A stretch of 64,000 nucleotides of DNA from Synergistaceae bacterium (GTDB lineage: Bacteria > Synergistota > Synergistia > Synergistales > Synergistaceae): contig JAAYFQ010000160.1 of NCBI GenBank assembly GCA_012728165.1, positions 1 through 64,000 on the forward strand, written 5' to 3'. The position numbers and the translations under genes were made by a program. The notes under the pieces are model-generated. The model saw nothing but the letters and a program-made list of their open reading frames with translations, did not search any database and was not told the origin of the DNA. Below are positions 32,314 to 36,783 of this stretch, one piece after another (position 1 is the stretch's first letter; the number at the start of each line of letters is the position of its first letter).

Positions 32314-32327
32314 TGCAACCGGTTGCA
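32314..32327 (+). promoter_or_regulatory. 14-bp palindrome resembling a LacI-family operator
   Basis: TGCAACCGGTTGCA is a perfect palindrome with a central CCGG. LacI-family repressors bind sites of this form. It overlaps the proposed -35 of the pyr operon. No LacI-type gene is in the window, so the regulator is unknown. Confidence 0.45.
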
Positions 32328-32351
32328 TAATTTAAAAAAGTGGTTTATAAT
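32323..32351 (+). promoter_or_regulatory. Promoter of the pyrRBC operon
   Basis: TTGCAT (32323-32328), 17 bp, TATAAT (32346-32351). The -10 is perfect and the -35 weak. Transcription from here would include the leader ORF and attenuator upstream of pyrR. Confidence 0.6.
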
Positions 32352-32381
32352 TTTTTAAGTTGAAAGATTGGGGGAGAGAAG

Positions 32382-32471
32382 ATGTCTAAAAAAAGCTGTT
32401 TAAGGCAAATCAGTTATTTCTCCTCGGTTATTTGTTCTATATTTGTTTATTTTAAGGAACTGTCTATATAG
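32382..32471 (+). CDS. Putative pyr operon leader peptide (29 residues)
   Basis: Short ORF MSKKSCLRQISYFSSVICSI followed by nine more residues, with a strong GGGGGAGAG ribosome-binding site 6 bases before the ATG. Its codons from about 32412 to 32453 are U-rich. Its stop, TAG at 32469-32471, lies inside the attenuator hairpin. This is the geometry of the enterobacterial pyrBI leader. There, UTP shortage makes polymerase pause in the U tract so that the following ribosome blocks the terminator hairpin. Translation of the ORF is inferred. Confidence 0.55.
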   Translation: MSKKSCLRQISYFSSVICSIFVYFKELSI

Positions 32472-32485
32472 ACAGTTCCTTTTTT
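32454..32485 (+). terminator. Attenuator hairpin before pyrR
   Basis: AAGGAACTGTCTA and TAGACAGTTCCTT form a perfect palindromic stem, followed by T residues. It starts inside the leader ORF and ends 23 bp before the pyrR start, so it must be read through for pyr expression. No canonical PyrR-binding loop was recognised upstream. Confidence 0.88.
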
Positions 32486-32507: not shown

Positions 32508-33059
32508 ATGGCTAAATTGAAAGAAAAAGCGCAGTTAATGAGTGCACAAGACCTTAAAAGAGTAATTAGAAGAATCGCGAATGAGATTGTTGAACGTAAT
32601 AAGGGTACTGAAAAAATGATTTTAGTAGGCATTCACAGAAGAGGCGTATATCTTGCACGTCGTATTCAGAAAATTATTGAAGAGGTCGAAGGTGTAAAAA
32701 TTCCCTGCGGTGAATTGGACATCACACTCTATAGAGATGATTTAACTACGTTATTTGAACAACCCATGGTCCACAGCACTAGAATGCCACAAGATATTTC
32801 AGGACAGAATTTATACCTTATAGACGATGTCCTCTACACTGGACGTACAGTTCGTGCGGCACTTGAAGCTCTTGTAGATCTTGGCAGGTCATCTCAAGTC
32901 CAGCTTGCCGTAATAATTGACAGAGGCCACAGGGAGCTTCCAATTCATGCTGATATATGTGGTAAATATGTCCCAACCTCAAGCGATGAAGTTATAGAAG
33001 TCAAAGTTTCGGAAATAGATGGAAAGGACGAGGTGGTAATCTGTGAACGTGATGCCTAG
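32508..33059 (+). CDS. pyrR: PyrR bifunctional regulator/uracil phosphoribosyltransferase
   Basis: In Bacillus, UMP-bound PyrR binds pyr leader RNA and promotes termination; it also has weak uracil phosphoribosyltransferase activity. VLIDDVLYTGRTVRAALEAL-type PRPP loop is seen as DDVLYTGRT near residues 105-113, and ILVGIHRRGVYLARRI opens the core. The ATG at 32508 gives 183 residues and is preceded by AAGGGG. It heads the pyrRBC operon and its stop region overlaps pyrB by 17 bp. Confidence 0.93.
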   Translation: MAKLKEKAQLMSAQDLKRVIRRIANEIVERNKGTEKMILVGIHRRGVYLARRIQKIIEEVEGVKIPCGELDITLYRDDLTTLFEQPMVHSTRMPQDISGQNLYLIDDVLYTGRTVRAALEALVDLGRSSQVQLAVIIDRGHRELPIHADICGKYVPTSSDEVIEVKVSEIDGKDEVVICERDA

Positions 33060-33999
33060 TGAAACAGGTCAAATTGTCTGGCGTCATAGAAATGTCATAG
33101 ACTTAGACAACTGGACAAAAGAAGATCTTTATTTTCTTTTAGATCAGGCTCGTCATATGGAGAATGTAATGGACAGACCGATAAAAAAGGTTCCTGTTCT
33201 TCGCGGAAAAATGTGTGTCAACCTCTTCTTTGAGAACTCAACTCGCACAAGAGTTTCATTTGAGCTTGCTGAAAAAATGCTTTCAGCTGATGTCGTTAAC
33301 TGGTCAGTGACAGGTTCTAGTTTTGCAAAAGGCGAAACTATGAGAGATACTGCATGGACACTTGAGGCAATGGGTGCAGATATAGTCGTAATGCGTCACG
33401 GATCTGTAGGAGCAGCTCAATACCTTGCATCAAAACTAAAAAGAGCAATAGTCCTAAACGCTGGAGACGGAACACATGCGCATCCTACACAAGCTTTGTT
33501 AGATCTGTACACAGCATGGAAACATTTAGGGGATTTAAATGGTAAAAGAATAGCACTCGTAGGAGACGTATTACACAGCAGAGTCGCTCGCAGTGATGTC
33601 ATTGCATTTAAGACAATTGGATGCGATGTTGTGCTTTCAGGTCCTCCGACAATGATGCCAAGAGATGTTGAAGCATTGGGATGCCGATATGAAAAGGATC
33701 CCAGAAAAGCAGTTGAAGGTGCGGATATGGTATATCTTTTGAGAATACAGAAGGAACGTCAACAAGATGGACTTTTTCCTTCTGTTGATGAATATCACAA
33801 ATGGTGGGGAGCTGACAATAAACTTATGTCATACGCTAAACCGGATGCCTTAGTAATGCATCCAGGCCCTATCAATAGAGGCGTTGAAATTGCATCGGAA
33901 ATAGCAGATGGGCATCAGAGTGTAATACTTGAACAAGTTCGTTCTGGAGTTGCTATAAGAATGGCTCTGCTCTATCTTTGTGGGGGAGGAGTAAGGTAA
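33043..33999 (+). CDS. pyrB: Aspartate carbamoyltransferase, catalytic chain
   Basis: Joins carbamoyl phosphate and aspartate, the first committed pyrimidine step. FFENSTRTRVSFELAEKML contains the STRTR carbamoyl-phosphate site, and DGTHAHPTQALLDLYT the HPTQ loop. HPGPINRGVE near the C-terminus completes the active site. Length is 318 residues. The GTG start at 33043 has AGGTGG upstream and overlaps pyrR; GTG 33049 and ATG 33052 are alternatives. No pyrI regulatory chain gene is present. Confidence 0.95.
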   Translation: MNVMPSETGQIVWRHRNVIDLDNWTKEDLYFLLDQARHMENVMDRPIKKVPVLRGKMCVNLFFENSTRTRVSFELAEKMLSADVVNWSVTGSSFAKGETMRDTAWTLEAMGADIVVMRHGSVGAAQYLASKLKRAIVLNAGDGTHAHPTQALLDLYTAWKHLGDLNGKRIALVGDVLHSRVARSDVIAFKTIGCDVVLSGPPTMMPRDVEALGCRYEKDPRKAVEGADMVYLLRIQKERQQDGLFPSVDEYHKWWGADNKLMSYAKPDALVMHPGPINRGVEIASEIADGHQSVILEQVRSGVAIRMALLYLCGGGVR

Positions 34000-35303
34000 T
34001 GAGAAAAAAGTTATTTAGAAATTTTAAGATTTTCGACGGAGAAAAATTCATAAAAGCAGATTCACTTCTTGTTGACGATGGGAAAATTTGCGAAATAAAA
34101 ACAGGAATAAATTGTCAAGATGCTGAAATTATTGAAGGAGAAGGACGGATTCTCACACCGGGGTTTATAGATCTTCATGCGCACTTTAGGGACCCAGGAG
34201 AAGAATGGAATGAAGATATATATTCTGGTGCTCGTGCAGGAGCCGCAGGTGGGTTTACAACAATGGTTGCAATGCCTAATACGAAACCTGCAATATCTGA
34301 GCCGTCTTTAGTTGAATACGTATTGACTCATAGCGCAAAGGCTAAATCATCAAGGATACTTCCTTCAGGGTGTGTTAGTAAAAATAGAGAAGGCAAGGAA
34401 ATGTCTGAACTTTTAAAAATGGCAGAGGCTGGAGCGGTTTTTTTTACTGATGACGGATCTCCTGTTGCGACAAGCGATTTGCTTCGTCTTGCACTTCAAT
34501 ACACAGGTAAAGACCAACCTCGAATAATGGAACACCCTGAAGAAAAAAGTTTATGTATTGGTGGGCAGGTACATGAAGGCCGAGTAAGTGCACTAAGCGG
34601 ACTAAAAGGTATTCCTGCAGCATCCGAGGAAATAGATGTAGCACGTGGAATAGCTTTAACACGTGAAACGAAGGGAAGAATACATTTTACACATTTAAGT
34701 AGTAAGGGTGCACTAGGTCTTATTAGACAAGCCAAAAAAGAAGGGTTAGATGTTACCTGCGACACTACTTTCCATCATCTGACTCTAAATGAGAATGCTG
34801 TAATAAACAGTGGGTATAGTTCTTGTTACAAAGTTAATCCTCCGCTTCGCAGTCCGGAAGATCAAAAGGCTTTGTGGGACGGCATATCAGATGGCACTAT
34901 TGATGCGATAGTGACGGATCACGCACCATGGCATATTGATAAAAAAGATGAACCATTTCAAAATGCGCCTTTTGGAATAGCGTCTTTAGAGTGCGCAATA
35001 GCCGTACTAATTGATTACAAGAATAAAAACTATCCAAAAGTTTCGCTAGAACTTCTATTTACTAAATTAACAAGTTCACCGGCAGCTCTTTTGCCTGTAA
35101 AATGGCATAAACTTGGTAGCATCAAGAAGGGATCCGTTGCTGATCTCACTATTATAGACTTGGATCGCACACGCATTGTTGACTGTAACACATGGAAAAG
35201 CAAGGCTCGCTGTTGCCCTTGGGAAGGAATAGCTTTAACAGGATGGCCAGTAATGACTTTTGCAGAAGGTCGCAAGATATGGGAAGATGAAGAGGAACTT
35301 TAG
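33999..35303 (+). CDS. pyrC: Dihydroorotase
   Basis: Zinc amidohydrolase closing carbamoyl-aspartate to dihydroorotate. DLHAHFRDPGEEWNEDI is the class I signature with the HxH metal site. Further conserved blocks are MPNTKPAI, and TDHAPW near residue 305. Length is 434 residues. The ATG at 33999 shares a base with the pyrB stop and follows GGGGGAGG. Confidence 0.95.
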   Translation: MRKKLFRNFKIFDGEKFIKADSLLVDDGKICEIKTGINCQDAEIIEGEGRILTPGFIDLHAHFRDPGEEWNEDIYSGARAGAAGGFTTMVAMPNTKPAISEPSLVEYVLTHSAKAKSSRILPSGCVSKNREGKEMSELLKMAEAGAVFFTDDGSPVATSDLLRLALQYTGKDQPRIMEHPEEKSLCIGGQVHEGRVSALSGLKGIPAASEEIDVARGIALTRETKGRIHFTHLSSKGALGLIRQAKKEGLDVTCDTTFHHLTLNENAVINSGYSSCYKVNPPLRSPEDQKALWDGISDGTIDAIVTDHAPWHIDKKDEPFQNAPFGIASLECAIAVLIDYKNKNYPKVSLELLFTKLTSSPAALLPVKWHKLGSIKKGSVADLTIIDLDRTRIVDCNTWKSKARCCPWEGIALTGWPVMTFAEGRKIWEDEEEL

Positions 35304-35364
35304 AGGCATCTGAATTTAATAGATGTTTATATAACTCCAATATTCAATATCAATTTTTAGACTC

Positions 35365-35428
35365 CGGCTAAGAGGGCTAAACTGATGAGAAAAATCATTA
35401 ATATTACTGCTCTCTAGCCGAATTTTTT
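35365..35428 (+). terminator. Terminator or attenuator between pyrC and pyrF
   Basis: CGGCTAAGAG and CTCTCTAGCCG form a stem with one bulged base, followed by AATTTTTT. The long loop holds a tiny ORF (35385-35417, MRKIINITAL) whose GAGGG is in the 5' arm and whose stop is in the 3' arm. It may simply end pyrRBC transcription or act as a second attenuator for pyrFE. A TATAAT at 35442-35447 could restart transcription. Confidence 0.65.
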
Positions 35429-35470
35429 GTGTATATTAAGTTATAATTACATAATAGAGGTGGTGCTCAA

Positions 35471-36178
35471 ATGATTGAAAATGATTGCGGTCTTATTCTC
35501 GCGCTAGATGTTTTGACTCTTGACGACGCACGGAGTTTTCTTGACAAACTAGCTAAGGCTACTCCATATGTTAAAATCGGACCTAGGCTCTACGCTCTTG
35601 GTGGTATAAAATTTGCAAAAGAAATAATAGACATGGGATATAACCTTTTTCTTGATCTAAAACTTCATGATATCCCAAACACAGTGGCGTCAGCAGTTCA
35701 ACCACTGTCGGAAATCGGACTTTGGGCTCTTACAATACATACTTCAGGTGGATATGAAATGATGGCACGTTCTGTTGCTATGCGTAATAAAACAGAGAGT
35801 GACATGAAATTATTTGGAATTACAGTTCTTACAAGTCTTGACGGAAAATTATGGAGCGATGTTCATCCAGGATCAGAAATTCAACAAGCTCTTATTTTAA
35901 GAGCTGAAACAGCTGAAAGAGCTGGACTTGATGGAATAGTCTGCTCTCCATTGGACTTAGAATTATTAAAGGGCAGGGCAACAAATCTGATGCGTATTGT
36001 ACCTGGAATTCGAGCTGCAAAAGTAAGCACAGAAGATCAGGCACGAGTCGCAACTGCAGAAGAGGCTGCTAAAGCTGGAGCAAGCTATATAGTTGTAGGA
36101 AGACCCATTCTTGAATCTGCGGATCCAATTCTCGCAACACAAAACATAATAAATAAACTTTTGAAGGTGAAGAGATAA
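35471..36178 (+). CDS. pyrF: Orotidine 5'-phosphate decarboxylase
   Basis: Last step to UMP. LALDVLTLDDARSFLDKL opens the barrel, FLDLKLHDIPNTV carries the catalytic D-K-xx-D motif, and ASYIVVGRPI is the phosphate site. Length is 235 residues, the common class I form. AGAGGTGGT lies upstream of the ATG. Its stop overlaps the pyrE start by one base. Confidence 0.96.
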   Translation: MIENDCGLILALDVLTLDDARSFLDKLAKATPYVKIGPRLYALGGIKFAKEIIDMGYNLFLDLKLHDIPNTVASAVQPLSEIGLWALTIHTSGGYEMMARSVAMRNKTESDMKLFGITVLTSLDGKLWSDVHPGSEIQQALILRAETAERAGLDGIVCSPLDLELLKGRATNLMRIVPGIRAAKVSTEDQARVATAEEAAKAGASYIVVGRPILESADPILATQNIINKLLKVKR

Positions 36179-36783
36179 TGGATTGTTCTCTTGAATTTAG
36201 AAATGAGAAAGTATCAACGATGATTCAGAAGATGATGAAAGAAAGTGGTGCTCATCTGGAAGGTCATTTCCAACTGACCTCAGGATTGCATAGTGGGCAC
36301 TATTTACAGTGCGCACTTATGCTTAGGTTTCCAAAATTCGCAGCATACGCAGGTGAAAAACTTGCTGAACGACTTGCACCATTAAAACCTGAATTTATCC
36401 TTTCTCCTGCACTTGGCGGGCTTATTATCGGGTACGAAGTCGCTCGTGTACTAGATATTCCCTTTATATTTTGTGAGCGACAGGATGGAGGTATGCGACT
36501 TCGTCGTTTCACTGTTCCTGATAAAAAACGCTTTGTCATGGTAGAAGATGTTGTAACTACAGGTAAGTCATCAATAGAAACAGCTCAAATATTAGTTAAT
36601 CTTGGTGCTGAATGGATTGGGTCTGCTTCTATTATAGATAGACGCTCATCTGAGTTTGAACAGGGATTAAAGTTGGAATCACTTTGGAAGCTTAGTTTTC
36701 CTGTGTACGAAAAAAAAGACTGTCCTTTTTGTGCCCAAGGTCTTCCTTTGGTTAAGCCAGGCAGTCGACCAGACCAGAAATAA
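36178..36783 (+). CDS. pyrE: Orotate phosphoribosyltransferase
   Basis: Adds ribose-5-phosphate from PRPP to orotate. GHFQLTSGLHSGHYLQC is the N-terminal block, and MVEDVVTTGKSSIETA is the PRPP-binding loop. Length is 201 residues. It starts on the pyrF stop (TAATG) and ends in the same way at the next gene, so pyrF, pyrE and the unknown gene downstream are translationally coupled. Confidence 0.94.
   Translation: MDCSLEFRNEKVSTMIQKMMKESGAHLEGHFQLTSGLHSGHYLQCALMLRFPKFAAYAGEKLAERLAPLKPEFILSPALGGLIIGYEVARVLDIPFIFCERQDGGMRLRRFTVPDKKRFVMVEDVVTTGKSSIETAQILVNLGAEWIGSASIIDRRSSEFEQGLKLESLWKLSFPVYEKKDCPFCAQGLPLVKPGSRPDQK

Follow-up and report, generated by a model that had tools for sequence, protein, structure and literature searches.

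A probable pyrBI-like, ribosome-coupled attenuator ahead of the pyrR-led pyrimidine operon of a Synergistaceae bacterium

The pyrR-led pyrimidine operon of a Synergistaceae bacterium is preceded by a short leader open reading frame (ORF) that ends inside an intrinsic terminator. As judged from sequence, ribosome-coupled attenuation at this leader is very likely, and the complete proposal, in which the leader is an attenuator of the pyrBI type whose coupling to the ribosome is paced by UTP, is considered probable. The operon lies in a 64,000-nt stretch of DNA, here called the window, from a 1.55-Mb draft genome of 208 contigs whose closest named relatives are Synergistaceae. The claim is that the leader works like pyrBI, not that it descends from pyrBI, as such peptides diverge fast; by descent, the leader is better viewed as a loop-less derivative of the pyrR leaders of Synergistales.

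Anatomy and conservation of the leader

Transcription is predicted to start at ~32358, which leaves a 5' UTR of ~24 nt before the leader ORF (Table 1). The core of the terminator is a 28-nt perfect palindrome, AAGGAACTGTCTATATAGACAGTTCCTT (32454-32481), and the TAG codon of the leader ORF (32469-32471) covers the final loop base and the beginning of the 3' arm of the hairpin. The leader therefore possesses a short ORF, led by a Shine-Dalgarno (SD) sequence, that overlaps an intrinsic terminator, as in pyrBI/pyrL-type attenuators. Coordinates and sequence bear out the description in an earlier note on this DNA of a 29-codon ORF with a strong ribosome-binding site (RBS) and a stop codon inside a perfect-palindrome terminator before pyrR. 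The U-rich distal half that it described is equally evident: 26 of the 40 nt preceding the hairpin are T, a count matched by only ~1.6e-5 of the 40-mers on the + strand of the window, and the T fraction of any 40-mer in the eight neighbouring genes is at most 0.475. At the sequence level, the leader thus also possesses the U-rich region that precedes the terminator in pyrBI/pyrL-type attenuators.

Table 1. Features of the pyrR operon and its leader in the window
Feature	Position	Strand	Basis or remark
Upstream gene	ends 32293		pyrR starts at 32508
Palindrome TGCAACCGGTTGCA, candidate LacI-family operator	32314..32327	+	overlaps -35 box; genome-wide occurrence
Promoter, TTGCAT - 17 nt - TATAAT	32323..32351	+	sequence; spacing preserved among relatives
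Leader ORF Shine-Dalgarno GGGGGAGAG	32370..32378	+	sequence
Leader ORF MSKKSCLRQISYFSSVICSIFVYFKELSI*, 29 sense codons and TAG	32382..32471	+	sequence; relatives
U-rich stretch, 26/40 T, proposed UTP-sensitive pausing zone	32414..32453	+	T count; relatives
UUUCUCCUC, complementary to leader SD, candidate RBS-occluding arm	32417..32425	+	modest clade-wide statistics
Intrinsic terminator (attenuator)	32454..32485	+	12-bp perfect stem, 4-nt ATAT loop, T-tract
pyrR, uracil phosphoribosyltransferase fold	32508..33059	+	N at B. subtilis H22, Y at N153
Downstream operon genes	33043..36783	+	names from reading translations
pyrB	33043-33999	+	named by translation
pyrC	33978-35303	+	named by translation
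pyrF	35471-36178	+	named by translation
pyrE	36178-36783	+	named by translation

Loci of pyrR were gathered from the same family and order, and their leaders were compared in register. The window clade, which consists of genera g1, g5, g6, g7, g16, g17 and g19 and one g21 species, provides 13 distinct leaders from eight genera. An SD-ATG-ORF that is uninterrupted up to the hairpin is present in all 13, as is a terminator-like hairpin, and the leaders other than that of the window likewise carry a purine-rich SD ahead of the start codon. The stop codon lies between -5 and +15 nt from the first base of the hairpin in 11/13 leaders, where shuffles predict 3.3 (P = 7e-7, from dinucleotide shuffles of the ORF bodies with the leaders taken as independent, which they are not fully), and the ORFs of the remaining two read through the hairpin, as does that of E. 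coli pyrL. For openness of the ORF alone, averaging within genera gives a joint chance of ~5e-4. The frame and the end of the ORF are thus conserved relative to the hairpin, a property of pyrBI/pyrL-type attenuators, and the proposal of a pyrBI-like layout is supported by both the sequence and its recurrence in eight genera. Between the two members of the window genus, the ORF lengths are 3 nt apart and the hairpin core is nearly unchanged, whereas the peptides have strongly diverged, which is the pattern expected if translation itself, rather than the peptide, matters. Three leader peptides scanned against Pfam matched no family, including the leader-peptide models.

U-richness is also a property of the clade. 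The T content of its leaders is higher in the distal 40 nt than in the proximal 40 nt (0.42 versus 0.31; p = 0.003), and the distal value exceeds the 0.26 of Bacillus-type leaders from the same order (p = 7e-4). The alignment of leaders that had been suggested as a check therefore finds the ORF frame, the hairpin and the U-richness conserved across these 13 leaders and eight genera. The extreme bias is confined to the window genus (0.57-0.65), with milder values in the other clade members (0.33-0.47). The leader ORF itself, as the earlier note had not recognised, occurs across the order, also in relatives with a PyrR-binding loop. In family f3, most of f10, and f2/f4, the leader ORF reaches the terminator and the U-rich bias is absent, and so a leader ORF alone is no proof of UTP sensing. 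Among the other loop-less groups, genera g29/g36 of family f6 exhibit U-richness that is milder than in the window clade, and most of the rest lack it. In genus g20 and part of g21 (L019, L024, L025), the promoter operator described below is kept and pyrR is preceded by no such terminator or leader ORF, and the attenuator is therefore a dispensable device.

The leader RBS can pair with a downstream segment, and in the window clade it does so better than in shuffled sequences (Stouffer p = 2e-4; one leader per genus, p = 0.002; permutation among leaders, p = 0.02); a similar result was obtained in f6 (Stouffer 2e-5; one per genus 0.04; permutation 0.04). With the same wide arm, the window leader alone gives p = 0.21, and E. 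coli pyrL does not rise above shuffles. Whole leaders contain no excess of structure over shuffles (mean z -0.47, not significant), and no structured element is common to the ~24-nt 5' UTRs. An RBS-occluding helix is accordingly an optional component, and the weakest, of the proposed model, because its support is modest and because the corresponding pairing in E. coli pyrL is no better than in shuffles.

The PyrR-binding loop and the PyrR protein

The Rfam PyrR element (RF00515) was found neither in the window genome nor in the window clade. At the window leader it scores 21.7 bits with a poor alignment, against a gathering score of 54, and a search at a lax threshold returned nothing in the clade and detected 6/6 loop-bearing control loci. 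The leader contains no binding loop with the hexaloop consensus, and its ~24-nt 5' UTR holds no loop ahead of the leader start at which PyrR could act in the Thermus manner. The statement that no PyrR-binding loop is recognisable thus stands, with RF00515 below the gathering score here and absent from all close relatives. A conserved loop in the same leader, the finding that was to count against a pyrBI-like mechanism, was searched for throughout the clade with strict and wide patterns as well as the lax Rfam search; all were negative, and a hidden loop was rejected. The terminator loop of L016/L017 fits the wide pattern, but that of their close relative L014 and that of the window do not, and the match was attributed to chance.

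Within the same family, genera g2, g10-g14 and g22 carry the PyrR loop, as do families f2 and f4 and parts of f6, and the leaders of the order fall into three layouts. In genera g10-g14 and f6g37, the layout is that of Bacillus: the loop is followed by an apparent antiterminator and a terminator, and most of these leaders lack an ORF. In g2, g22, f2 and f4, the loop is followed immediately by the SD of a leader ORF, which reaches the terminator in nearly all cases. In g2, f2 and f4 (L028, L126-L128, L193, L195, L204), the 3' stem of the loop abuts or overlaps this SD; in this Thermus-like arrangement, translation of the leader may be under the control of PyrR. The window clade, genera g29/g30/g33/g36 of f6, and families f3, f5, f9 and f10 have a loop-less leader ORF that mostly reaches the terminator. 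Other small hairpins lie just before the leader SD, at the place of the PyrR loop, in f3, f5 and f10 (L183, L200-L205, L125, L163), where the PyrRs mostly keep H22 and do not keep N153; an altered PyrR site is possible in these families. Genomes of genus g30 of f6 contain two copies of pyrR (L119/L159, L120/L160, L124/L161), one with the operator and leader ORF and the other directly behind a coding sequence.

In Thermus ZO5, a pyrR-led operon reportedly described by Van de Casteele et al. in J Bacteriol in 1997, a translating ribosome is said to replace the antiterminator, and PyrR is said to act on the leader RNA. The window operon resembles this system in being led by pyrR and, by its anatomy, in having a leader ORF that could block the terminator, as proposed there. 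It differs in that the PyrR loop is missing and in that residues conserved in loop-bearing relatives are changed. The leader of the window probably arose from a combination of PyrR with a leader ORF, similar to the one proposed for Thermus. The best PDB match of the window PyrR is 1ufr, which we take to be a Thermus-type PyrR.

An alignment of 100 PyrRs of the order, 22 from loop-bearing and 78 from loop-less loci, was examined for columns that are invariant in the former and relaxed in the latter. These columns include the equivalents of B. subtilis residues 22, 152 and 153, with position 29 nearly qualifying, and some of these positions are presumably among the mutagenised RNA-face residues of B. 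subtilis PyrR. The PyrR of the window genome retains K29 and K152 and departs from the loop-bearing consensus at H22, which is N, and at N153, which is Y; across the window genus, N22 is accompanied by Y153 or K153. Outside of genera g1, g19, g5 and g17, the window clade still possesses both H22 and N153. The two residues occur together in 22/22 PyrRs with a loop and in 18/78 without. As the tree provides only 1-4 independent contrasts between loss of the loop and loss of H22/N153, this is an association in the alignment rather than a proven correlated loss. The main role left to PyrR in the window genus is probably enzymatic.

A candidate LacI-type operator at the promoter

The earlier note did not include the candidate LacI-type operator at the promoter. 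The window genome has two exact copies of TGCAANCGNTTGCA, one ahead of pyrR and one ahead of a gene for an NCS2 uracil permease. Most window-clade genomes likewise possess exactly two such sites, and 9/9 of the non-pyrR sites checked precede the same permease. The window genome contains a single LacI-family gene. The regulator is conserved across the clade at ~195 residues, and in nearly all clade genomes an imperfect operator copy lies just before the start of its gene (operator and regulator loci: window 32314-32327; L220:1501; L221:359-943). The best matches elsewhere in the order lie in open frames of ~270-300 residues. The short form, an HTH and part of an effector domain, is conserved in ~20 genomes (L222-L241) and is therefore apparently functional. 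Its predicted structure (mean pLDDT 85) consists of an HTH and a reduced effector-type domain, with CcpA, RbsR and PurR as the best structural matches, and it is likely to be a LacI-type pyrimidine repressor. Two layers of control probably act on the operon, with this repressor at the -35 box separate from the attenuator. A large survey of LacI regulons covers seven phyla, and Synergistota is not among the phyla named (PMC4052901).

Proposed mechanism and alternatives

UTP-paced coupling is inferred from the stop codon within the hairpin, from an ORF of fewer than 100 nt, and from the U-richness of the one evident pausing zone. Transcription would begin ~24 nt ahead of the leader ORF. With UTP plentiful, the polymerase would pass quickly through the U-rich second half and the ribosome would lag, or the leader RBS would be closed by the complementary pyrimidine segment, such that the hairpin forms and transcription stops before pyrR. 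With UTP scarce, the polymerase would pause in the U-rich stretch, and the ribosome could catch up and follow it to the stop codon in the hairpin, where it would keep the 5' arm unpaired and allow the operon to be transcribed. The RBS could also be shut, after the polymerase has moved on, by pairing with a segment in or close to the U-rich zone. UTP is thus the presumed signal, and polymerase pausing, the direction of the response and closing of the RBS are presumed with it. In reporters, relocation of a stop codon to a point 5 bp upstream of a terminator reduced the efficiency of termination from ~90% to <10%, an effect that was lost once translation was removed, and coupling within the first ~100 bp requires polymerase pausing (PMC4824070). 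In pyrL, tight transcription-translation coupling prevents formation of the pyrBI terminator (PMC5021804).

The leader of E. coli pyrBI was read for comparison. Both leaders have an SD-led short ORF soon after the promoter, a U-rich distal part, overlap of the ORF with an intrinsic terminator, and no recognised protein site. They differ in ORF length (44 codons in pyrL, 29 here), in the stop codon, which lies beyond the hairpin in pyrL and inside it here, and in the peptides, which share no similarity. The operon starts with pyrR rather than pyrBI, has a LacI-type operator at its promoter, unlike E. coli pyrBI, and belongs to a member of the Synergistaceae rather than the Enterobacteria. The Bacillus PyrR attenuator (RF00515), which was found in sister genera g10-g14 and parts of f6, likewise controls a pyr operon that encodes PyrR, but the window clade lacks its binding loop and any recognised antiterminator. 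The trp, his and leu attenuators also combine a short translated leader with a terminator; here, by contrast, there is no run of codons for a single amino acid, no shared peptide sequence and no recognised antiterminator helix. Inspection of the leader peptides revealed no shared codon run, and amino-acid attenuation was rejected.

It is unlikely that PyrR still acts on the leader through an unrecognised RNA element, such as a helix of the RBS and pyrimidine tract that blocks leader translation. The ancestral arrangement may have been one in which PyrR acted on leader translation, given sister lineages with the loop directly before, and in several (g2, f2, f4) overlapping, the leader SD; H22 and N153 are retained in much of the window clade, and the weak RBS pairing fits this reading. 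However, the leaders have no loop sequence in common, the 5' UTR of ~24 nt is unstructured, RF00515 is negative across the whole clade, and N22 and Y153 or K153 have replaced the usual residues in the window genus. The earlier note had offered action of PyrR at an unusual RNA site as its alternative; the changed residues and the lack of a common structured element in the 5' UTR weaken it.

An attenuator that responds not to UTP but to the overall translation capacity or the growth rate, with any ribosome lag halting the operon, would explain why leader ORFs reach the terminator across the order even without U-rich tracts, but not the extreme U-richness right before the window hairpin or the significant bias in the clade; the operon is, moreover, a pyrimidine operon, and this explanation is distinctly unlikely. 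Least plausible is that the LacI-type repressor at the -35 box alone exerts pyrimidine control and that the leader is a fixed partial terminator: the operator is highly specific to the pyr and uracil permease promoters, and the clade conserves the regulator, whose own gene is preceded by an imperfect site, but a fixed terminator would need no conserved ORF frame or stop placement, and the clade repressor is without much of its effector domain.

Within the preferred pyrBI-type reading, a joint history can be advanced with somewhat less than even confidence. The RNA role of PyrR would have been discarded in these Synergistaceae, with loss of the loop before the leader SD, retuning of the ORF attenuator to sense UTP via the U-rich tract, decay of the RNA-binding face of PyrR, and a LacI-type repressor acting at the DNA level. 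RNA emerging near the pause zone and closing the leader RBS could provide a kinetic lock in such a system. A literature search on pyr leaders in Synergistota found no paper. One bacterial order contains three layouts, namely a loop with an apparent antiterminator, a loop before the SD of a leader ORF, and a leader ORF alone, which make the exchange of a protein-RNA switch for pure transcription-translation coupling testable, with the regulator gene kept as an enzyme. Finding pyrR as the first gene of an operon does not imply control by PyrR.
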